Shown here: positions 1 through 11,617 of the stretch, piece by piece
Layout: each line of letters starts with the position of its first letter
Position numbering within the stretch: the first letter of the stretch is position 1
NCBI GenBank assembly: GCA_949472775.1
Contig: CASWVG010000001.1
Location: 156,013 to 220,012, forward strand
Direction: 5' to 3'
From: an uncultured Lachnospiraceae bacterium
GTDB taxonomy: Bacteria; Bacillota; Clostridia; Lachnospirales; Lachnospiraceae
DNA: 64,000 bases
Translations under genes and position numbers: made by a program
The notes under the pieces: model-generated
Databases searched by the model: none
The model's input: only the letters and a program-made list of their open reading frames with translations
What the model was told of the DNA's origin: nothing

Positions 1-116
1 ACCAGAATAATCTGATACCCCAGCTCTTTCGCCTTTTTTATGGCGGGAACCTGCAGCGCGCTTGCGCCCAGAATCATCATTTTTTTCTGCTTTTCTTCCA
101 CTTCACTTTTCTCCAT
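1..116 (-). CDS. N-terminus of a probable ATP-grasp / carbamoyl-phosphate-synthase-large-like protein (truncated by window edge)
   Basis: Minus-strand translation from ATG at 116 reads MEKSEVEEKQKKMMILGASALQVPAIKKAKELGYQIILV, a nucleotide/ATP-grasp N-terminal fold pattern; open to the window edge. Confidence 0.6.
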   Translation of the reverse strand, partial: MEKSEVEEKQKKMMILGASALQVPAIKKAKELGYQIIL

Positions 117-245
117 CAAAGCACCTGTCTGCCCTAATCAAACACCACAGCCCCGCAGCGCATCGCTCCCAAACCCTTTCTCCTCTGACAGCATAAACCC
201 ATTTGTCGTGGCAGCTCCGCTTTCGGCTTCCCGACCACGCGGCGC

Positions 246-1334
246 CTACTCCACAAACTTCCAGTCCATCGGCGTCCCACGGGAAATATCACAGCGCGCC
301 TTTTTGCCAAGCATCTCTTCATAATACATAGGCGCCATGCCGAAAGCCGGGCGTATGGAACGCAGATTTTCCGGCGTAAAAGCCTCACCCGCTTTCATAT
401 CCTGCGTCACAAACAGGGAACGCCCCTCCTCCCGGCTTCTCTCCTGCTTTTCGGTCAGTTTGTAAGTCACCCTGCCGAGCGCTTTCTCGACAATACGGAT
501 TTCATCCACCATCTTTTTAAACTCCGCAGGCTCCATAGAAAAAGCACCGTCCGGTCCGCCGTCCGCCCGGGAGAGCGTAAAGTGTTTTTCCACCATCCGC
601 GCGCCGAGAGCTACCGAAGCCACCGCTACCGCAGAACCCATGCTGTGATCAGAAAGTCCTGTCATGCAGTCAAAAGTTTCCGCCATATGGGGAATGACTT
701 TGATATTCATATCCTCATATGGCGCTGGATAAGTAGCCGTGCATTTCAGAAGTATAATCTGCTCATTCCCCTCCTCACGACACGTTCTCACCGCCCTGTC
801 AATATCCTCCAGATGCGCGAGTCCCGTCGCCATGATCACAGGCTTCCCCTGTCTTGCGATCTTACGGACAAGAGGAATGTCCCAAATTTCGGGAGATGCA
901 ATCTTATAGGCGGGCATCTGCATCTCTTCCATAAAATCCACCGCCGTGAAATCAAAAGGCGACGAAAAACAGTCCATCCCAAGATCGTTTGCCAGCTTCA
1001 TCAGTTTTGGCTGCCACTCCCATGGCGTGAACGCCTCCTGAAACAGTTCGTAGCAGGTCATACCGTCCCAGATCGTCCCCTGCGTGATCTGAAAGTATTC
1101 GTTATCACAGTCCATCGTAATGGTATCTGCCGTGTAAGTCTGCAGCTTCACCGCATCCGCGCCCGCTTCCTTTGCCGCCCGTATAATTGCTTCCGCCCTG
1201 TCATAGTCCTGCAAGTGATTTGCCGACATCTCCGCCACAATATAGGCAGGCTCGCCTTCGCCGATCAGGCGGCTGCCGATTCTTATTTTATCCTGTCCCA
1301 TGTTTCCTCTCTCCCTGCCGATCAGCTTCTGCAC
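246..1334 (-). CDS. pseI: Pseudaminic acid synthase (NeuB/PseI family)
   Basis: NeuB-type motifs: AGADAVKLQTYTADTIT, FSSPFD, KIASPE, VIMATG, LLKCTATYPAP, GLSDHS; C-terminal SAF domain. Adjacent to pseF. Confidence 0.87.
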   Translation of the reverse strand: MQKLIGRERGNMGQDKIRIGSRLIGEGEPAYIVAEMSANHLQDYDRAEAIIRAAKEAGADAVKLQTYTADTITMDCDNEYFQITQGTIWDGMTCYELFQEAFTPWEWQPKLMKLANDLGMDCFSSPFDFTAVDFMEEMQMPAYKIASPEIWDIPLVRKIARQGKPVIMATGLAHLEDIDRAVRTCREEGNEQIILLKCTATYPAPYEDMNIKVIPHMAETFDCMTGLSDHSMGSAVAVASVALGARMVEKHFTLSRADGGPDGAFSMEPAEFKKMVDEIRIVEKALGRVTYKLTEKQERSREEGRSLFVTQDMKAGEAFTPENLRSIRPAFGMAPMYYEEMLGKKARCDISRGTPMDWKFVE

Positions 1335-1453: not shown

Positions 1454-2164
1454 TTACCGCTCAGATTTCTCCCGCATCATTCGGAATTTCATCTCCGCCA
1501 GTGCCAGATCGGACGGATTGTCTATGTCCTGCACCTCCGTCTCCGGCACAATAATGGGCAGATACCCGTCCGGCAGATCACCCTTGCAGGCAAGATACTT
1601 CTTTACATGATAACAATAAAACTGTCCGCTGTCATGGTATACAGGCTCCAGATCCTGCGACCGTTTCATGGCGTTCTCCGGATAACAGTACACAAGCTTT
1701 CCGTCCCGGATCGCCATGCCCCGCTGCGGCGGAAACGAATAGCGGACCACAGGCATCACCCCCGACGCATCCTTCTCCACCAGAAGCCCCATTGCCTCCT
1801 GCAGTTTCTGCGCCGTCACAAAGGGCGCGGTCGGATAAATACATGCCATATAATCGAACGTCTCGCCCTGCTCCTCATACGTCCGAAGCACCTCCATTAG
1901 CACATCATCCGTGGTGGCAAAGTCACCCGACGTCTCCGCGCTTCTCATAAAAGGAACCGCCGCGCCCGCGTCCCGTGCAATCCGCGCAATCTCCTCATCA
2001 TCTGTGGAGACCATGACCTCACGGAATATGCCGGACTGAAGCGCCGCCTCAATGCCGTAGATTAACATCGGCTTTCCCATAAACTCTTTGATATTCTTCC
2101 CCGGAATCCGTTTACTGCCACCCCGTGCGGTGATGATTGCCACCGCATTTAACCCTGCTCCCAT
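1454..2164 (-). CDS. pseF: Pseudaminic acid cytidylyltransferase (CMP-nonulosonate synthetase)
   Basis: AIITARGGSKRIPGKNIKEFMGKPMLIYGIEAAL; CMP-NeuAc synthetase family; neighbour of pseI. Confidence 0.87.
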   Translation of the reverse strand: MGAGLNAVAIITARGGSKRIPGKNIKEFMGKPMLIYGIEAALQSGIFREVMVSTDDEEIARIARDAGAAVPFMRSAETSGDFATTDDVLMEVLRTYEEQGETFDYMACIYPTAPFVTAQKLQEAMGLLVEKDASGVMPVVRYSFPPQRGMAIRDGKLVYCYPENAMKRSQDLEPVYHDSGQFYCYHVKKYLACKGDLPDGYLPIIVPETEVQDIDNPSDLALAEMKFRMMREKSER

Positions 2165-2405: not shown

Positions 2406-4565
2406 TTACAATCCCATAATCTCCTCCGCGATCCGTTCCGCCCCTTTACCATCCGTCACCTGCCCAAGGTTTTCCTTCATGCGCTCCCGAAGCATGGCGT
2501 CCGACACCAGCCTTTTTAGCCCCTCGCAGATCTTTTCAATGCAGGCATCCCTGTCCTGCGCAATGTCCCCGGCAAAGAGCATCCGCTCCCCGGCTTCAAA
2601 AAACTCCCTGTCGTAGCGCTGATTATCAGCCGACTGGAAAAATACCGTGGGAACCTGCATGGCACAAAGCTCAAACAGCATGGTACCCGCCGCGGAAACC
2701 GCTGCGTCACAGTCCGCCATCAGTCCTGCCATATCAAAGCAGGGGCGGTATACTCTCACATTTTCGTGAGTACTGGCAAACGCTTCAATGGCATCGCCCT
2801 GCGGATGATATGCACCCACCACCGCATGAAACTCAATCTGGTTCAGTTCTTCTATTTGCGCGGCACGCTGTAAAACACCAAGAACGGCATTATGCGCATC
2901 CCCACCGCCGCTTGACAGCAGTACGGAAAATCCTTTCTTTTTACTTTGCGCATCCCTGATCTGCTTGACGCCAAATTCTTCCCGCAAGGGCACATAATCG
3001 GTTCCCAGAAGCAGCCTTGTCTCACCGCCGTAAGTTTCCCGGTAGGGAAAGCGGATATGATAGGCATTATAATTGATCAGCCCGTCTACCGGAAATACAT
3101 GCTCAAAACAATCGTCAATACAAGCCAGTTTCACAAATGGACGAAGCTCCTCAAAATAAGCAGGTACCGCCTGATAAGAATCCACCAGAAGCGTTTTTAC
3201 TCCCGCCAGTTTCAGGATTTCCCGCAGCACCGGCAGTTCCTCTTCCATGTGGTTCCACTGCGTATGCAGACAGACATGATCCATCCCCGCACGGAAAAGT
3301 ATATCCTCCGCCTGCTCGTCAGCCGTGATAAACAGCACCTGCCCGCCCAGCTTTTTAATCTGCTCCGCTATGGTAATGCAGCGCATCATGTGCCCCATGG
3401 CCACCGTTTCGTTGGCGTCCACGCGGATGCCGACTACGGGCTGTCTCTCGTACAGGGCAAGCACTTCCGCAATCTGCTCCATCTCACAGGCCCCGTATCG
3501 CTGGTCGATGGGCAGCGCCAGCAGATGCCCGAAGATATATGTCTCATCCCCTTCCAGGAACTCCTTATTCTCTTCTCCTACCGGCCAGAGCACCGGCGCG
3601 TATATCCCATGTCTGGCCAGAAATCTCTGTAAACCGTCCCGCTCCTTCACATATACCGGCAGATAGAGTGGCGCCTGCTCCTCCTTTAACAGCATGGGCC
3701 AAAGCCTTTTCATGCCGCTTATATGGTCATACAGAATATGATAATTTTCCGTCCTTTTCCGGCGTGCATCCTCCTCGTCCACTCTGGAAAGAATATCCAC
3801 AGATATACGAGAAATGCGCCGCACCCCACGATAGCAGTCAAGATCACGTTCCAAAAAGCGGTTTCTTTTCAGATACTCCGCCTTTCTCGGCAGCCACCCC
3901 GCCGTCAGCGCACCCCCGGTCCTTCTCTCTTTTTCCCGCAGATACTCCCATTTCTGGACAAGCGGCACCAGCCGTTCTCTTGCATACGTCTCTCCAGACT
4001 CCAACACATCTTCCGCCAGAGGAAAATCAGATGCCACAAATCCGCCGTCGGGAACCGCATACCATTTCCGCAGACTTCCCACCACAAAATCCGCATCCTT
4101 TCCCGCCTCTTCCAGATAGTAGGACTGGGTCACATCCTCCATTACAAGCACCCCTTTTTTTCTGAGGGCAGCAAGCTGTCGGCGAATCCCGGCACAGGTA
4201 TCTGTCCCGTAATACGGATGAATGAAAAGAAGGCCCGGATCATGCTCCAGCGCCAGACGGAAAATCTCCTCCCCGGCCGTCTCCAGATCCCTGTCTACGG
4301 AGTAAAAAATAAGTTCCCATCCCTGATGACGGAAGGGCAGAAAAACACAGTCGCACATATAGGCCGGCATTAAGCAGCGTTTCGTTATATCCGGCTTTTC
4401 CCGCTCCAGACTTATCAGGGCAAGCTCAATCGCCTCCCTGCCGGAAGCTGTAAAACAGCATTGCTTTTTCCCATACTTATCCACCTGTCCAAGATGGAGA
4501 GTATCTGTGATTTCACCGTTTCTTATAGTAACGGGATTGATTTCAAAAACACTTCCGATTTCCAT
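2406..4565 (-). CDS. pseG: Fusion protein: N-terminal DegT/DnrJ-like PLP aminotransferase-type domain + C-terminal PseG (UDP-2,4-diacetamido-2,4,6-trideoxy-beta-L-altropyranose hydrolase)
   Basis: C-terminal half begins VVGIRVDANETVAMGHMMRCITIAEQIKKLGG (PseG signature, coordinate about 3440); N-terminal half has ASGREAIELAL ... VMEDVTQSYY ... SLRKWYAVPDGGF (fold-type I aminotransferase-like). Confidence 0.85.
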   Translation of the reverse strand: MEIGSVFEINPVTIRNGEITDTLHLGQVDKYGKKQCCFTASGREAIELALISLEREKPDITKRCLMPAYMCDCVFLPFRHQGWELIFYSVDRDLETAGEEIFRLALEHDPGLLFIHPYYGTDTCAGIRRQLAALRKKGVLVMEDVTQSYYLEEAGKDADFVVGSLRKWYAVPDGGFVASDFPLAEDVLESGETYARERLVPLVQKWEYLREKERRTGGALTAGWLPRKAEYLKRNRFLERDLDCYRGVRRISRISVDILSRVDEEDARRKRTENYHILYDHISGMKRLWPMLLKEEQAPLYLPVYVKERDGLQRFLARHGIYAPVLWPVGEENKEFLEGDETYIFGHLLALPIDQRYGACEMEQIAEVLALYERQPVVGIRVDANETVAMGHMMRCITIAEQIKKLGGQVLFITADEQAEDILFRAGMDHVCLHTQWNHMEEELPVLREILKLAGVKTLLVDSYQAVPAYFEELRPFVKLACIDDCFEHVFPVDGLINYNAYHIRFPYRETYGGETRLLLGTDYVPLREEFGVKQIRDAQSKKKGFSVLLSSGGGDAHNAVLGVLQRAAQIEELNQIEFHAVVGAYHPQGDAIEAFASTHENVRVYRPCFDMAGLMADCDAAVSAAGTMLFELCAMQVPTVFFQSADNQRYDREFFEAGERMLFAGDIAQDRDACIEKICEGLKRLVSDAMLRERMKENLGQVTDGKGAERIAEEIMGL

Positions 4566-4597
4566 AGGCAGTCCTCCATACGATAATCAATTCTCCC

Positions 4598-5632
4598 TTA
4601 CCGTTTTCTCTCATGTTTTTTCCTGAAGTTCCGGTACGTCCACAACAGTTTATAGTACACCATGAACACCAATGTCGATTTCATCTGCATGCGGATCAGC
4701 TTTTTCTCCTCCGCATGGGTCCGTTCAATATAATAGGGATTATTCTGAAAATCCGGAAAGCGGCATCGCATTTCCTCTCCAAGCTTCTTCACAAACCGGT
4801 ATTTTGTCCGTTTCACACCCGCCATATAGGTAAACAACGTGTTCACATAGAAGAGCAGGGTGAAACTGTACTCCAGTTCCTCCCGGTATTTATCCAGGAA
4901 ATCATGCCGCTCGGCCTCCTTTAACATCAGCCTGCCGGCCTCACACCGGTCCTCACAGCGTTTCTCCGAAATGGTATGCACAGTGGAGGAATCATGCTGA
5001 TAATAATAATACAGCGGCTCCTCAATGTACTCGAAATGATCTGCCAGCACGAGATACGAATTTCCCAGCGCATTGTCCTCATAAAAGATATGCTCGGGAA
5101 ACCAGAGCTCATGTTCCATAATCATGGAGCGGCGGAATATCTTTACCACCAGACTGCCCCCGTCCAGAATCAGACTCCGCCTCTTTCCGTCGTCCAGAAC
5201 GCCCGTCTGGCTGCTCTTGTTATTGTGCACCACTTGTCCCACTTTCATGGAATGCTCAGACGTCATATTATAGTCGCATCCCGCCAGATCGGCTCCTGTA
5301 CTTTCCGCCCTTTCAATCAGACGCGCGTACATGTCGGGCGTAATCCAGTCATCGCTGTCAATAAATCCGATCCACTCTCCCTGCGCGATTTTCAATCCCG
5401 CGTTCTTCGCGCCTCCCTGATGCCTGTTTTCTTCCAGATGCAGTGCACGGAATTTTTTCGGAAAGCGTTTCTCGTAACTTTTCAGTATCTCCCAGGAATC
5501 ATCGGTGGAACAGTCGTCCACTGCAATGATCTCGTAGTCCGCCACGGTCTGTGCCACAAGCGAGTCCAGACAATATTCCAGTTTTTTCTCCGCTGCCATA
5601 TTATAGACCGGCACAATAATACTAAGTTTCAT
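4598..5632 (-). CDS. Glycosyltransferase family 2
   Basis: LSIIVPVYNMAAEKKLEYCLDSLVAQT...DDCSTDDSWEIL...GEWIGFIDSDDWITPDMY. Confidence 0.92.
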   Translation of the reverse strand: MKLSIIVPVYNMAAEKKLEYCLDSLVAQTVADYEIIAVDDCSTDDSWEILKSYEKRFPKKFRALHLEENRHQGGAKNAGLKIAQGEWIGFIDSDDWITPDMYARLIERAESTGADLAGCDYNMTSEHSMKVGQVVHNNKSSQTGVLDDGKRRSLILDGGSLVVKIFRRSMIMEHELWFPEHIFYEDNALGNSYLVLADHFEYIEEPLYYYYQHDSSTVHTISEKRCEDRCEAGRLMLKEAERHDFLDKYREELEYSFTLLFYVNTLFTYMAGVKRTKYRFVKKLGEEMRCRFPDFQNNPYYIERTHAEEKKLIRMQMKSTLVFMVYYKLLWTYRNFRKKHERKR

Positions 5633-7985
5633 CTGATTCTGTCAGCTCCTCCCCGAGTAGCAGTTCAGCCTTCCTCTGCTCTGCTCTGTTACTGATTCTG
5701 CCCCGGTATAAGCAATAAAGTATCGCCAGTGCGGACACCACATCCGCAATCACAAATGCCGGTACCGGCCCATAGCGCACATAGATCCGATGCTCCGCGC
5801 CGTCCCCGTTTACAAAAAAGCGCATCCGCCCCCCTTCTCCCTGCTCTATCGTCACAGGCTTTCCCTGCTCATCCGCCGCCCGGTAACCGAGATAATTCTG
5901 CAGGGGCAGCTCAATATAAGCCGTGGAAGAGTCCGCAGTATAGGACACCACCGCCCGCGTTCCCTCCTTTTTAAAGTCGCGCACGGACACAGATCCCATA
6001 TCTGACGTAACCACATTTCTGGTCAGCTTATCCTCTGTCGCCCCTGACAGCCGCCATTCGTGCGGATAGAACAGTCCCACACCAACGCCCAGCTTCGTCT
6101 CATGTCCTTTGGAAGCCACCGACTCCGCATTCTTATACGGCACATGATTATTGTCGGCAGGCACCGATACGATCACTAAAAGATTGAGACTGACTAACAT
6201 TGCGAAAATGATATTCCGGTAAGGCTTTAACACCTCTGAGCGCTCAAGTCCAGCCGCTCCTGCAAAGAGCAGGCAGGCGGACGCAGGTCCCAGAAACCGC
6301 CAGGGAAATTGCAGTATCGTTGCTATGTTTCTGAAAAGATCATTTGCCATGAGCGCCCTGCTCGGGAAATAACCCGTGGACAGAAAGACAAACACGCTTC
6401 CAAGAACCAGCATGTACAGCATAAAACCGTCGGATGCATTCACCCGCCCACGCCTTTCACATAAAAGATATACAATTCCAATTCCCAGACAGCCCAGAAG
6501 CGCAAGCCCCAGTGAAAAATACTGCTTATTATAAAGACTTAACGTCTGCGTCATATTAGAAAGATTAATCGACTGTTCAAAATAGCCGCTCCACCGCAGA
6601 ACTTCCTTTTCCATATTCTCCATAAAATAGTAATACAGGAATGGAACAACATACCACGCATTCAACAGCATGGTAAGGCCTGCAGCCTTTAAAACTTCCA
6701 TGTAGCGTCTTTCGCGCACAATGCGCACGCAGTATAGAAGCACAGTAATGACACAGACCGCCGCCACATAAGCCACGCTCAGAATATGACTCTGCAGCGC
6801 GCCGGTAAACCCGATCACGAGGTAATGCCATTTTTTCCGGTCACCCATGACGATATGATAAAGCCCCGCAATAACTAACGGCCAGAAAACAAGGGCAAGT
6901 GTCTCCCCCAGATCTCCTCTGGAGAGAATATTGGTAAAACGGTATGGCATCAGCGTATAGAGCACTACTGAAAGAATAACGCTTCGTCTGGATTTCACCA
7001 TGGATTTTACCGCCACATAGGCGCAGGCTGCCGAACCCAGATTGGACAGAAATACCAAAACCTTGTAAGAAAAAGCCAGAGACACCCTGCATATCCTCAG
7101 AAATGCGCCTATATATAAAAACAGATACGGGTACATGGCATTCATATAACCGTTATTTTGCAGTCCATCCGGCAGAATATTGACAGGAATCACCTGCCCA
7201 TCCAGAATGCCGTCCTTAAGTCCTTCCAGTCTGGCCAGATGATAGCACAGATCATCTGCATTGTAGAGATAAGTCTGCATCAGTGGCGTAGTGGCAAGAA
7301 ACGCCACCCCTAAAATCACGGCACAGTCCACCAGTTTTTCCTGCGACAGCTTTCTGCCACTTCTCACATACAGCCAGGCTGCAAGATGCAGCAACAGAAA
7401 AACAACAATCAGGAAATACGTATCGGTATAAAAGAGCGTATCCGGCGCGAGGGACATCTTCCTGATCGTAAGCGTCCCTTCCCCGCAATAATTAATGCGA
7501 AGCTGCAGCGCTTTCGCGTCTTTGGAAATAGTAAAATCTGCTGTCAGCTCCTTCTCCGATGCATTGATCGGCCATGCCGCAATCTTATCGCCCTGCTCCC
7601 AGAGCTCCAGCACATTGCCCTCCTGCTCCGTGCTGTAAAGCAATGTTGCCCTATAACTGCCCTTGTTTAAAACGTAGGATGGTGTGCTTGCCACCGAGCT
7701 GTATCCGGCCAGAATATCTCCCAGCGTCCTCATATCCTCTGAATCAATTAATCCCGCTGCCTTTTTAATTACCAGTGCATTCTCTGTATTAATCAGACCC
7801 ATGGAATGCTGCAGCTCGATACCGTCATAGACAATTGGCTGCCTTCCTTCATCCCCCGCCCATACAAGCGCGATGAGCAACGCTGCCAGAGCCGTATATA
7901 TGATTTTTATCTTTAAGGATATTCCTTCTGTCATGTCCGTCTCAGTTCCTTTGATCTTCTGTGAGGATTTCCTGTCAGCGCCCAT
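5622..7985 (-). CDS. Large polytopic membrane protein, GT-C/YfhO-like
   Basis: 787 aa with many TM segments; DDLCYHLARLEGLKDGILDGQ motif typical of GT-C-like membrane proteins; 3' end overlaps the next GT2 start by 11 nt. Confidence 0.7.
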   Translation of the reverse strand: MGADRKSSQKIKGTETDMTEGISLKIKIIYTALAALLIALVWAGDEGRQPIVYDGIELQHSMGLINTENALVIKKAAGLIDSEDMRTLGDILAGYSSVASTPSYVLNKGSYRATLLYSTEQEGNVLELWEQGDKIAAWPINASEKELTADFTISKDAKALQLRINYCGEGTLTIRKMSLAPDTLFYTDTYFLIVVFLLLHLAAWLYVRSGRKLSQEKLVDCAVILGVAFLATTPLMQTYLYNADDLCYHLARLEGLKDGILDGQVIPVNILPDGLQNNGYMNAMYPYLFLYIGAFLRICRVSLAFSYKVLVFLSNLGSAACAYVAVKSMVKSRRSVILSVVLYTLMPYRFTNILSRGDLGETLALVFWPLVIAGLYHIVMGDRKKWHYLVIGFTGALQSHILSVAYVAAVCVITVLLYCVRIVRERRYMEVLKAAGLTMLLNAWYVVPFLYYYFMENMEKEVLRWSGYFEQSINLSNMTQTLSLYNKQYFSLGLALLGCLGIGIVYLLCERRGRVNASDGFMLYMLVLGSVFVFLSTGYFPSRALMANDLFRNIATILQFPWRFLGPASACLLFAGAAGLERSEVLKPYRNIIFAMLVSLNLLVIVSVPADNNHVPYKNAESVASKGHETKLGVGVGLFYPHEWRLSGATEDKLTRNVVTSDMGSVSVRDFKKEGTRAVVSYTADSSTAYIELPLQNYLGYRAADEQGKPVTIEQGEGGRMRFFVNGDGAEHRIYVRYGPVPAFVIADVVSALAILYCLYRGRISNRAEQRKAELLLGEELTESDET

Positions 7986-8018: not shown

Positions 8019-9221
8019 TTACACGTCCTCCTTCGCATAATAGACCGCAATTTTCTTCACCGCCCTGATCACACTCTCCACGTCCTCATCGCTCATGGCA
8101 TAGTAGAGCGGCAGGGAAATGATTTCCTCATAAAGTTTTTCCGCGTTGGGGCACAGTCCCCGCTTATAGCCTAGTTTCTCATAGTAAGGAAAATAGTAGG
8201 TCGGTATGTAATGCACATTACAGCATACATTTTCCGCCGCCAGTGCCTCAAAAAATTGTTTCCTGTCAATCCTCAATCTTTCCGGCACGATGCGCAGAAT
8301 ATACAGATGTCGTGTCGTATCCGACTCCGGAATCTCACGCTGGATAAAAAGCGCCGGCATCCCGGAGAATGCCTCATCGTATCGCTTCACGATCTCTTTT
8401 CTGCGGCTGCTGAACATGGGCAGCTTATTAAGCTGGCTTATAATCAGCGCCGCCTGCATGTCCGTCATACGGTAGTTATAGCCGAGTGCAATCTGCTCAT
8501 AATACCAGGGACCGTCCGGCTCATGTTCCATAAGGCCTTCATCCCTCGTAATGCCATGGGTACGGTATAGAAGCAGTTTTTGATAGAGCGTATCGTCGTT
8601 TGTCAAAACCGCGCCGCCCTCGCCGCCCGTCACGGTTTTAACGGGATGAAAACTGAACGTAGTCATATCGGAAAGGGAACCGTTGGGCTGTCCCTTATAT
8701 TTCGTGCCGATCACATGGGCGCCGTCCTCGATCAGAACCAGCCCTTGTTTTTTACAGATCTCTCTCAGCGAATCAAGAGCCACAGACTGACCTGTATAGT
8801 CAACCGCAACAACCGCTTTTGTGGCAGGTGTGATGGCCGCTTCCACCTTCCCCGGATCAATATTGTAAGTTTCGGGATCAATATCCACAAAGACAGGTCT
8901 TGCCCCACAGTAGAGCGCACAGTTTGCCGAGGCCGCAAAAGTGATGGGTGTGGTGATGACCTCGTCCCCCTCTTTCACACCTGCTGCCATTGCCGCCATG
9001 TGCAGTGCCGCCGTGCCGTTGGCACAGACCACCGCATGCTTCGCTCCCGTCAGCGCGCAGAGCTTTTTTTCCAGTTCTCCAATCTTCGGTCCGCACGTCA
9101 GACAATCGCTTTTCATGACCTCCACCACAGCCTGAATATCCGCCTCATCTATATACTGATGCCCGTAATAAATGGGCGTCTCCCTTGCGGGCTTCCCACC
9201 CTCGATCGCCGGTTTTTCCAT
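8019..9221 (-). CDS. pseC: UDP-4-amino-4,6-dideoxy-N-acetyl-beta-L-altrosamine transaminase
   Basis: DegT/DnrJ family: YGHQYIDEADIQAVVEVMKSDCLTCGPKIGELEKKL, TFSFHPVKTVTGGEGGAVLTND. ORF opens at 9359, but ATG at 9221 has a GGAGGAG RBS. Confidence 0.9.
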   Translation of the reverse strand: MEKPAIEGGKPARETPIYYGHQYIDEADIQAVVEVMKSDCLTCGPKIGELEKKLCALTGAKHAVVCANGTAALHMAAMAAGVKEGDEVITTPITFAASANCALYCGARPVFVDIDPETYNIDPGKVEAAITPATKAVVAVDYTGQSVALDSLREICKKQGLVLIEDGAHVIGTKYKGQPNGSLSDMTTFSFHPVKTVTGGEGGAVLTNDDTLYQKLLLYRTHGITRDEGLMEHEPDGPWYYEQIALGYNYRMTDMQAALIISQLNKLPMFSSRRKEIVKRYDEAFSGMPALFIQREIPESDTTRHLYILRIVPERLRIDRKQFFEALAAENVCCNVHYIPTYYFPYYEKLGYKRGLCPNAEKLYEEIISLPLYYAMSDEDVESVIRAVKKIAVYYAKEDV

Positions 9222-9378: not shown

Positions 9379-10374
9379 TTATTTTTCCAGTTCTACATCT
9401 TTTAACAGCGCACGGATTTCTTCCACGCCGATCCACTCCGTATTATTGTCGGAACTGTAATGAAACCCTTCCATCACTTTCTTACCCGAAAGATCCGGCT
9501 TCTGTCTGTTGTTCCATGTCATCTGCGGATAGACAATAAAGTGTTTGTCATACTCGTAGGTAGTCGCCGAGTCCTCCGTGGTCACCATGATCTCGTGCAG
9601 CTTCTCCCCCGGTCTGATACCGGTCTCCTTAAGTCTGCATCCGGGCAGCATCGCCTCCGCCAGATCCGTGATCTTAAAGGATGGTATCTTGCTGATGAAG
9701 GTTTCCCCGCCGTTTGCCTCCGCAAGCGCCTTGATCACCAGCTCCACACCCTGCGTCAGACTGATCCAGAAGCGGGTCATGCGCAGATCTGTAATGGGAA
9801 GTTCCGTCGCTCCCTCCTGAATCAGCTTGTGGAAAAAAGGAATGACAGACCCACGGCTGCCCGCCACATTTCCGTACCTCACAATGGAAAAGCTGATATC
9901 CTTCGTACCCACATAAGCGTTCGCCGCCACAAAGAGCTTGTCCGAGACAAGTTTTGTCCCACCGTAAAGGTTAACCGGGTTCACCGCCTTGTCCGTAGAC
10001 AACGCCACCACCTTGCGCACCCCCGTATCCAGCGCCGCGTCAATCACGTTCATGGCGCCGTGAATGTTTGTCTTAATGGCCTCGTTGGGGTTATATTCGC
10101 AGGCGGGCACCTGCTTTAACGCCGCCGCGTGAATGATGTAATCCACCCCCTCGCAGGCGCGCTTCAGACGCTCCACGTCGCGCACATCGCCGATGAAAAA
10201 CCGGAGTTTCTCCTCGTGCTCCTTAAACTCATTCGCCATCATCCACTGTTTAAATTCATCTCTCGAATAGATGATGATTTTTTTCGGCTCATAGTTGGTG
10301 AGCACGTATCTGGTAAAGCATTTTCCGAAAGAACCCGTTCCCCCGGTTATCAGTATGGTTTTATCTTTTAACAT
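9379..10374 (-). CDS. pseB: UDP-N-acetylglucosamine 4,6-dehydratase (inverting)
   Basis: MLKDKTILITGGTGSFGKCF...AAALKQVPACEYNPNEAIKTNIHGAMNVI...ALSTDKAVNPVNLYGGTKLVSDK; start moved from 10434 to 10374 (AGGAAGGAG RBS). Confidence 0.93.
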   Translation of the reverse strand: MLKDKTILITGGTGSFGKCFTRYVLTNYEPKKIIIYSRDEFKQWMMANEFKEHEEKLRFFIGDVRDVERLKRACEGVDYIIHAAALKQVPACEYNPNEAIKTNIHGAMNVIDAALDTGVRKVVALSTDKAVNPVNLYGGTKLVSDKLFVAANAYVGTKDISFSIVRYGNVAGSRGSVIPFFHKLIQEGATELPITDLRMTRFWISLTQGVELVIKALAEANGGETFISKIPSFKITDLAEAMLPGCRLKETGIRPGEKLHEIMVTTEDSATTYEYDKHFIVYPQMTWNNRQKPDLSGKKVMEGFHYSSDNNTEWIGVEEIRALLKDVELEK

Positions 10375-10430
10375 AGATCTCCTTCCTGCAAAAAGCGAAA
10401 ACTCAGAATCCACGAACGGGCAGGCACTTC

Positions 10431-11492
10431 TCACACTATGCCAAGTTCCCGGAACGCCTTCTCATAGGGCGCCCTGCAAAGCCCTTTTTCTGTAATAATG
10501 CCTGTAATCAGCGAATGATCTGTCACATCGAAAGCAGGGTTATAAACTTTCACACCCTCCGGCGCCATCCGCTCCTTATACCACATCTGTGTCACTTCTT
10601 CCGCCGCCCGCTCCTCAATGGGAATCTGATCCCCCGTCGCAAGGGACAGGTCTATGGTGGAACTGGGCGCGCATACATAAAATGGAATCCCGTAATGTCT
10701 CGCCAGCACGGCCACCCCCGAAGTACCGATTTTGTTGGCGGTATCGCCGTTTGCCGCCACCCGGTCACAGCCCACAAAGACCAGATTCACAAGTCCGCTC
10801 TTCATCACGGTGGACGCCATATTGTCACAGATCAGAGTCGTGTCGATGCCCGCGCCGTGAAGTTCAAAAGCTGTCAGCCTGGCTCCCTGCAAAAGCGGCC
10901 TCGTCTCGTCACAGTATACCCGGAAATCCGTCATCCCATGCTTAAGCGCCACATACATAGGCGCCGTCGCCGTACCGTATTTCGCCGTAGCAAGCGTTCC
11001 CGCGTTGCAATGGGTAAGAATCCCGTCACCTGGCTTCATCAGCCCGAAACCGATCTCCCCGATGCTGCGGCTGATCGCTACATCCTCATCCCGGATTGCC
11101 TGCGCCTCCGCAAAAAGCCGCTCCTTGATCTCTGCCACCGTCTGGTCCGCATGTGCAAGCAATGTGCGTTCCATCCGGTCCAGCGCCCAGAACAGATTCA
11201 CCGCCGTGGGACGCGAGGAGGCAAGATATTTTTTCTGCTCCCTAAATGCCGAAAGAAACGTTTCATAATCCTGCGTCTCAATGCGGGATGCGGTGAGGGC
11301 AATTCCGTACGCGGCACAGACGCCGATCGCCGGCGCGCCCCGGACGCGCAAAAAACGGATCGCCTCGTAAATGTCTTCTATTTTCTCTACCCGCAGCACC
11401 TTCACCGTGCCCGGCAGCAGCGTCTGGTCCAGTATTTCCAGACAGCTTCTGTCCTCGGAGAGAAGAACTGTGTCTAATTTCAATGCATCCAT
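10431..11492 (-). CDS. mtnA: S-methyl-5-thioribose-1-phosphate isomerase family protein (MtnA)
   Basis: RFLRVRGAPAIGVCAAYGIAL; DGILTHCNAGTLATAKYGTA; CDRVAANGDTANKIGTSGVAVLARHYGIPFYVCAPSSTID; canonical MtnA/eIF2B-alpha-like motifs. Confidence 0.92.
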   Translation of the reverse strand: MDALKLDTVLLSEDRSCLEILDQTLLPGTVKVLRVEKIEDIYEAIRFLRVRGAPAIGVCAAYGIALTASRIETQDYETFLSAFREQKKYLASSRPTAVNLFWALDRMERTLLAHADQTVAEIKERLFAEAQAIRDEDVAISRSIGEIGFGLMKPGDGILTHCNAGTLATAKYGTATAPMYVALKHGMTDFRVYCDETRPLLQGARLTAFELHGAGIDTTLICDNMASTVMKSGLVNLVFVGCDRVAANGDTANKIGTSGVAVLARHYGIPFYVCAPSSTIDLSLATGDQIPIEERAAEEVTQMWYKERMAPEGVKVYNPAFDVTDHSLITGIITEKGLCRAPYEKAFRELGIV

Positions 11493-11588: not shown

Positions 11589-11617
11589 ATTATAGGCAGT
11601 TTTCACAGACGTGTCAA
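11589..11617 (-). promoter_or_regulatory. Perfect-consensus sigma-A promoter TTGACA-17-TATAAT upstream of mtnA-pseB-pseC...
   Basis: Minus strand TTGACA (11617-11612), 17 bp, TATAAT (11594-11589); -35 overlaps the stop of the upstream gene. Confidence 0.85.

Follow-up and report, generated by a model that had tools for sequence, protein, structure and literature searches.

The window that we analysed, a stretch of 64,000 nucleotides from an uncultured Lachnospiraceae bacterium (contig CASWVG010000001.1), carries on its minus strand a block of genes for the biosynthesis of pseudaminic acid (Pse). Reading along that strand, pseB, for the 4,6-dehydratase/5-epimerase (9379..10377; TIGR03589, 535 bits), is followed by pseC, for the canonical UDP-sugar 4-aminotransferase (8019..9221; TIGR03588, 474 bits against a cut-off of 423.5), which the initial annotation had rightly recognized as a separate gene. 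Next come a multi-spanning membrane protein (PTPS_related) that is a conserved neighbour (5622..7985), a family 2 glycosyltransferase kept in most loci (4598..5632; Pfam PF00535), the open reading frame considered here (2406..4565), pseF, for the CMP-Pse cytidylyltransferase (1454..2164; TIGR03584, 269 bits), and pseI, for pseudaminic acid synthase (246..1334; TIGR03586, 483 bits). All four pse genes exceed their cut-offs, and they share one gene block with the PseG discussed below. The 5' end of an ATP-grasp gene of the L-amino-acid-ligase type (LAL_C2) occupies positions 1..119, with the remainder to the left of the window (L077:16636-18132); beyond this ligase gene are a GT52/polysialyltransferase-like protein and a PglK-like ABC transporter. 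The order GT2 - [PLP]PseG - PseF - PseI - X - GT52 - PglK is conserved across loci. Directly upstream of pseB, here and in 17 related loci, lies an mtnA-type (methylthioribose-1-phosphate isomerase) gene (10431-11492) with no obvious link to Pse. Upstream of the mtnA-pseB block there is a perfect TTGACA-17-TATAAT promoter-like site (11589-11617, minus strand), and an 11/12 promoter-like site (2346-2374) lies upstream of pseF.

The open reading frame at 2406..4565 encodes 719 aa from an ATG start, with no internal stop and with a Shine-Dalgarno-like GGAGG (ribosome-binding-site-like; 4573..4577, minus strand) 5' of the ATG. It joins an N-terminal PLP (fold-type I) domain to a C-terminal PseG domain, much as the initial annotation had proposed from the letters alone, and the motifs picked out at that time (ASGREAIELAL, VMEDVTQSYY and SLRKWYAVPDGGF) are all present in the protein. 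The PseG part (residues 373-719; 2409..3449) matches TIGR03590 with 179 bits, above the cut-off of 153.55, across residues 378-654, and has the invariant GH392xMRC motif. Since it passes the equivalog cut-off for the UDP-6-deoxy-AltdiNAc hydrolase and sits in an operon with pseB, pseC, pseF and pseI, it is predicted to carry out the same hydrolysis. The standard PseG stands alone, however, whereas this one is preceded by a PLP domain of 372 aa.

On the basis of a structural model and profile comparison, the N-terminal domain (residues 1-372; 3450..4565) is a fold-type I PLP domain related to the DegT/DnrJ enzymes, forming a separate and very divergent family. An AlphaFold2 model of the domain (40 sequences) has a mean pLDDT of 88.8 and a pTM of 0.90. 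The top list of a Foldseek search with it against the PDB consists entirely of DegT-type sugar enzymes (QdtB, HCAN_0200, WlaRG and WecE), at TM 0.59-0.65, ~15% identity and an rmsd high enough that the whole chain superposes poorly on these matches. Profile alignment by hhalign to a PseC/WecE/LegC-type set (97.7%, E 1.8e-12) places K167, the predicted PLP Schiff-base lysine (GSLRKWY; codon 4065..4067), opposite PseC K195, and D144, the predicted partner of the PLP ring nitrogen (MEDVTQ; codon 4134..4136), opposite D166. The PLP lysine is thus intact, and K167, D144, Q147, S164, R43 and R356 do not vary among 40 relatives. The domain is apparently an active PLP enzyme, cofactor binding and activity being predicted from these residues. 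Pfam, taken up to E 10, has no match for the N-terminal 372 aa, PF01041 included; a PDB sequence search with the single domain had no match either, so that profiles were needed; the PseC equivalog TIGR03588 is not among the matches of the fusion protein; and NCBIfam offers a weak match to the PLP lyase EgtE (E 4e-5). The YNYRM-x-D-x-QAA loop of DegT enzymes is absent, the aligned region reading GVRRISRISVDIL. Of the DegT/DnrJ-like assignment first made for this domain, therefore, the fold holds and membership in the Pfam DegT family does not. The domain has in common with the DegT/DnrJ/EryC1/StrS enzymes (PseC, WecE, QdtB, WlaRG) the fold, the PLP lysine and the aspartate, but it differs from them in the lack of a Pfam match, in the low identity just given, in a different C-terminal half with an invariant DQRY, and in not replacing PseC.

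We define here an "EIGS/EIGG" PLP family, whose distant members stand alone, have 314-383 aa and share an N-terminal EIGS/EIGG, an [ST]xRK motif and DQRY near the C-terminus. Their profile matches that of the window domain at 100% probability, and the window domain has all of the family's attributes: the motifs, the conserved D, and a location within an amino-sugar cluster, next to a ligase or acyltransferase gene. In 20 distant relatives the K, the D and the R preceding the K are invariant; four of these relatives match PF01041 (best E 1.4e-10). The family was found in 17 of the 391 Clostridia genomes searched and, outside the Clostridia, in Proteus mirabilis, Cupriavidus and Priestia; those matches led to no known structure, and the Priestia member is annotated as a hypothetical protein. 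Distant relatives in amino-sugar clusters adjoin ATP-grasp, FemAB-like or GNAT genes. One sugar cluster (L112:4477-12098) combines a GNAT with two ATP-grasp genes and two distinct members of the PLP family, and a Proteus mirabilis polysaccharide cluster (L148:9130-13972) holds a sugar aminotransferase, a WbqC-like protein, the PLP relative and an SDR-type enzyme; nothing useful was found in the WbqC literature. Three clusters of the legionaminic acid (Leg) type (L116, L123 and L124) contain a PLP relative with FemAB-like and GNAT genes, the last of them beside flagellin genes; they are a possible source of an amino-acid-bearing Leg.

The fusion is widespread in the Lachnospiraceae, isolates such as Kineothrix alysoides (L053) included. 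Among 43 loci from GTDB contigs, a single open reading frame encodes both domains in 35, and in six (L047, L048, L049, L050, L055 and L069) the two parts are adjacent genes on the same strand; the remaining two are broken in frame (L063) or cut by a contig end (L071). Another split pair occurs in L015, and a triple fusion, PLP-PseG-PseF, occurs as a single 991-aa open reading frame in L073 (7743-10718), with a PseF part that exceeds the TIGR03584 cut-off. On the PseG tree, the distribution of the split state takes three or more changes to explain. Fused, adjacent or triple-fused, the PLP and PseG parts thus remain together. Both parts are under purifying selection, as dN/dS between close relatives lies at about 0.09-0.12 in the PLP domain and 0.07-0.14 in PseG. 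An assembly or annotation artefact, including the possibility of two separate open reading frames in the window, was ruled out by the many independent assemblies, the isolates and the purifying selection. In the open-access literature searched, we found neither the PLP-PseG fusion nor this PLP family described, and likewise no account of the exchangeable slot presented below.

By domain content the partner gene behind pseI is an L-amino-acid-ligase-type ATP-grasp gene, with Pfam ATP-grasp_4 at 70.7 bits and LAL_C2 at 69.5 bits, both over cut-off. Across 77 genomes of the genus, the PLP domain and the LAL ATP-grasp occur together in 33 and are both absent from 40, while two genomes have the PLP domain only and two the ATP-grasp only. 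All four discordant genomes are incomplete, with breaks inside the cluster or close to it: three contigs end inside it (L132, L133 and L135), and that of L131 (G474, 84%-complete) extends only 0.5 kb past pseF. In most genomes without the PLP domain, slot X instead contains a fold-III PLP decarboxylase-like gene (LysA/FslC-like, below cut-offs) and an ATP-grasp gene of another type. This arrangement, an alanine-racemase-fold decarboxylase-like gene and an ATP-grasp gene within the Pse operon, which we call type B, can be seen at L082:10794-12964 and L079:6915-9412. The PLP domain (35 genomes) and the decarboxylase-like gene (34 genomes) are found together in a single genome, G449, and the decarboxylase-like copy there is outside the Pse cluster. 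Elsewhere PseI has a fused C-terminal GNAT (L138:6359-7858, G482, a genome without the PLP domain), is fused to a formyltransferase-type domain (L137:8990-10618, G484) or has a separate formyltransferase next to it (L142:8957-9505, G455); the latter two suggest an N-formyl Pse. The initial annotation had noted neither the tight link of the PLP domain to an ATP-grasp ligase nor this exchange in sister genomes. We infer that the PLP domain and its ATP-grasp act as one cassette among several that can replace each other, each installing an N-acyl group of Pse.

Fisher tests on the associations of the PLP domain give p = 5e-17 and 2e-12, values that ignore shared ancestry and are for that reason far too optimistic, as PLP presence changes only twice on the PseG tree. 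One change separates basal groups lacking the domain (L016-L019, L130 and L129, with the divergent L137, L138 and L140) from its bearers; how the tree is rooted decides whether this was a gain or a loss. In the other, the domain was lost recently in L128, whose sister L052 carries the fusion; recombination of pseG alone could also explain the position of L128. The LAL ATP-grasp changes together with the PLP domain in both transitions, two pairs being too few to reach significance in a sign test.

In the textbook pathway, PseH acetylates the 4-amino sugar made by PseC. The established order of the enzymes is PseB, C, H, G, I, F, with PseH directly before PseG (PMC7910423). A genome-wide search found no PseH (TIGR03585) over cut-off in any of 30 genomes. 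The PLP domain itself has a fold-type I PLP fold and not that of a GNAT. That PseG should be fused to the enzyme acting just before it is natural, given the position of PseH in the pathway and the existence of PseG-GNAT fusions: the annotation of a Parabacteroides PseG (WP_009276750.1) gives it a fused GNAT, which would be expected to work on the sugar amine in the step that precedes PseG. There the GNAT is C-terminal, whereas in the window the extra domain is N-terminal and the ATP-grasp is a separate gene. The main uncertainty of our model comes from a PseH-like GNAT (64-81 bits, cut-off 93), which every cluster type has next to wecE at a distance of ~14 kb, even where PseI has its own GNAT or a formyltransferase. 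This GNAT may serve as PseH, in which case standard acetylation would be possible and the cassette could act elsewhere. Its constancy whatever the slot contains and its place beside wecE make it more likely, however, that it acylates the WecE product, a Fuc4N sugar.

The reading that we favour, with belief and doubt about evenly balanced, is that the fusion is a bifunctional enzyme of a non-standard Pse pathway, which together with the ATP-grasp enzyme installs an N-acyl group on the 4-amine of the PseC product (the future N7). PseC would supply the UDP-4-amino sugar; the ATP-grasp enzyme would form an amide between its 4-amine and an amino acid or related acid; the PLP domain would alter the amino group of this substituent, most simply by transamination; the fused PseG would take the product on, removing UDP from the 6-deoxy-altrose intermediate; and PseI and PseF would complete CMP-Pse. 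The installation would be the PseH step or a later N-substitution, and here the group is probably derived from an amino acid. The genes of the cassette do not name the acyl group, and we infer its amino-acid origin, along with position N7 and the order of the steps; the PLP domain could also act on a free metabolite and not on the sugar. A modified Pse derivative, among the options that the initial annotation had put forward, is the one best supported by the gene context, and the domain does appear to be additional to the standard pathway, as supposed, with a canonical PseC in every PLP-bearing genome tested. On a larger scale, and with rather less assurance, we would propose that Lachnospiraceae have PseH-free Pse pathways in which acetylation is replaced by exchangeable cassettes, that the cassette seen here uses PLP chemistry on an amino acid attached to the sugar, and that its domain represents a widespread, unnamed PLP family serving such substituents.

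The PLP domain might instead be a further sugar aminotransferase, placing an extra amine on a Pse precursor or on Pse for the ATP-grasp enzyme to acylate, with a triamino nonulosonic acid as the product. Its closest folds are all nucleotide-sugar aminotransferases, its profile matches DegT enzymes, and it is coupled to an amide-forming ligase. We nevertheless consider this rather unlikely, as the domain is remote from the DegT enzymes and has no YNYR-type loop, and as the slot in sister genomes holds a plain acetyl- or formyltransferase with no additional aminotransferase of this family, so that acylation of an existing amine fits better than a new one. Nor does it seem probable that the role of the cassette is to attach some later or extra substituent (at N5, O-linked, or on CMP-Pse or the glycan), with N7 acetylated by the GNAT ~14 kb away and the PseG fusion serving only for co-expression or scaffolding. 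The presence of that weak PseH-like GNAT in all cluster types would suit such an arrangement, as would the Leg clusters that hold PLP relatives alongside a LegH-like GNAT and a FemAB-like protein, and the amino acid at N5 of C. botulinum Leg (quoted in PMC5207245). The same GNAT is present whatever occupies the slot, even with a second GNAT fused to PseI, and its proximity to wecE points to Fuc4N.

A non-catalytic or purely structural partner of PseG, as the initial annotation had allowed, would be compatible with the fusion and operon context alone and with the sister genomes whose PseG has no PLP domain. It is very unlikely, because the Schiff-base lysine, the PLP aspartate and further pocket-type residues are invariant (K167, D144, R43, Q147 and R356 in the 40 relatives, K, D and R in the 20 distant ones) and dN/dS of the PLP part equals that of the enzyme PseG. 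Least credible of all would be a redundant or replacement PseC, for which the DegT-like fold would speak: TIGR03588 does not match the domain, and every PLP-domain genome tested has a canonical PseC over cut-off. The domain is therefore not the standard 4-aminotransferase. LegC over cut-off is likewise present in three genomes that have Leg clusters together with PLP relatives, and a duplicate PseC/LegC was ruled out on the canonical genes in the genomes tested.

Amino-acid-bearing sugars and PLP enzymes for tethered substrates both have precedents, which lend support to the mechanism that we favour. V. vulnificus is reported to make the alanyl-bearing Leg5Ac7AcAla (PMC7371886), and Leg5GluNMe7Ac has been ascribed to C. 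botulinum, as quoted in PMC5207245. The C. difficile RT027 type B flagellin locus (CDR20291_0244-0247: FemAB, ATP-grasp, OCD-like, FdtB) ties ATP-grasp and FemAB-like genes, both of which also neighbour our PLP family, to an amino-acid amide on an amino sugar; the ATP-grasp gene CDR20291_0245, beside the FemAB-like gene, is needed for the terminal Fuc3N with its taurine-Ala-Gly amide (PMC5207246, PMC5207245). The sugar there is Fuc3N and not a nonulosonic acid, however, and the paper describes no gene of this PLP family at the locus. BtrK and FslC are PLP enzymes acting on tethered amino acids (PMC7857480); such alanine-racemase-fold decarboxylases are of fold-type III, whereas the window domain is of fold-type I. 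As the type B cassette of the Pse operons pairs a BtrK/FslC-type enzyme with an ATP-grasp ligase, the logic of a ligase plus a PLP enzyme recurs. The Shewanella sfm operon also has a terminal ATP-grasp gene, in a Pse-like pathway without a clear PseH orthologue, but a PLP gene of this kind is not described there.

Pseudaminic acids are found on bacterial surfaces, flagella included, and are read by hosts and phages, and their N-acyl groups are a main source of their chemical variety. To our knowledge, only a few enzymes that install acyl groups have been described. PseG, PseC and ATP-grasp ligases are already known, and within this variant of the pathway sits an enzyme family without a name. 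The findings point to a modular "acyl slot" in commensal Lachnospiraceae and to a PLP family that has no curated model and is hidden among hypothetical proteins. They suggest that many gut Lachnospiraceae make an unusual Pse, probably decorated with an amino acid, and the fusion and its ligase provide a ready genetic handle for finding this unknown sugar.
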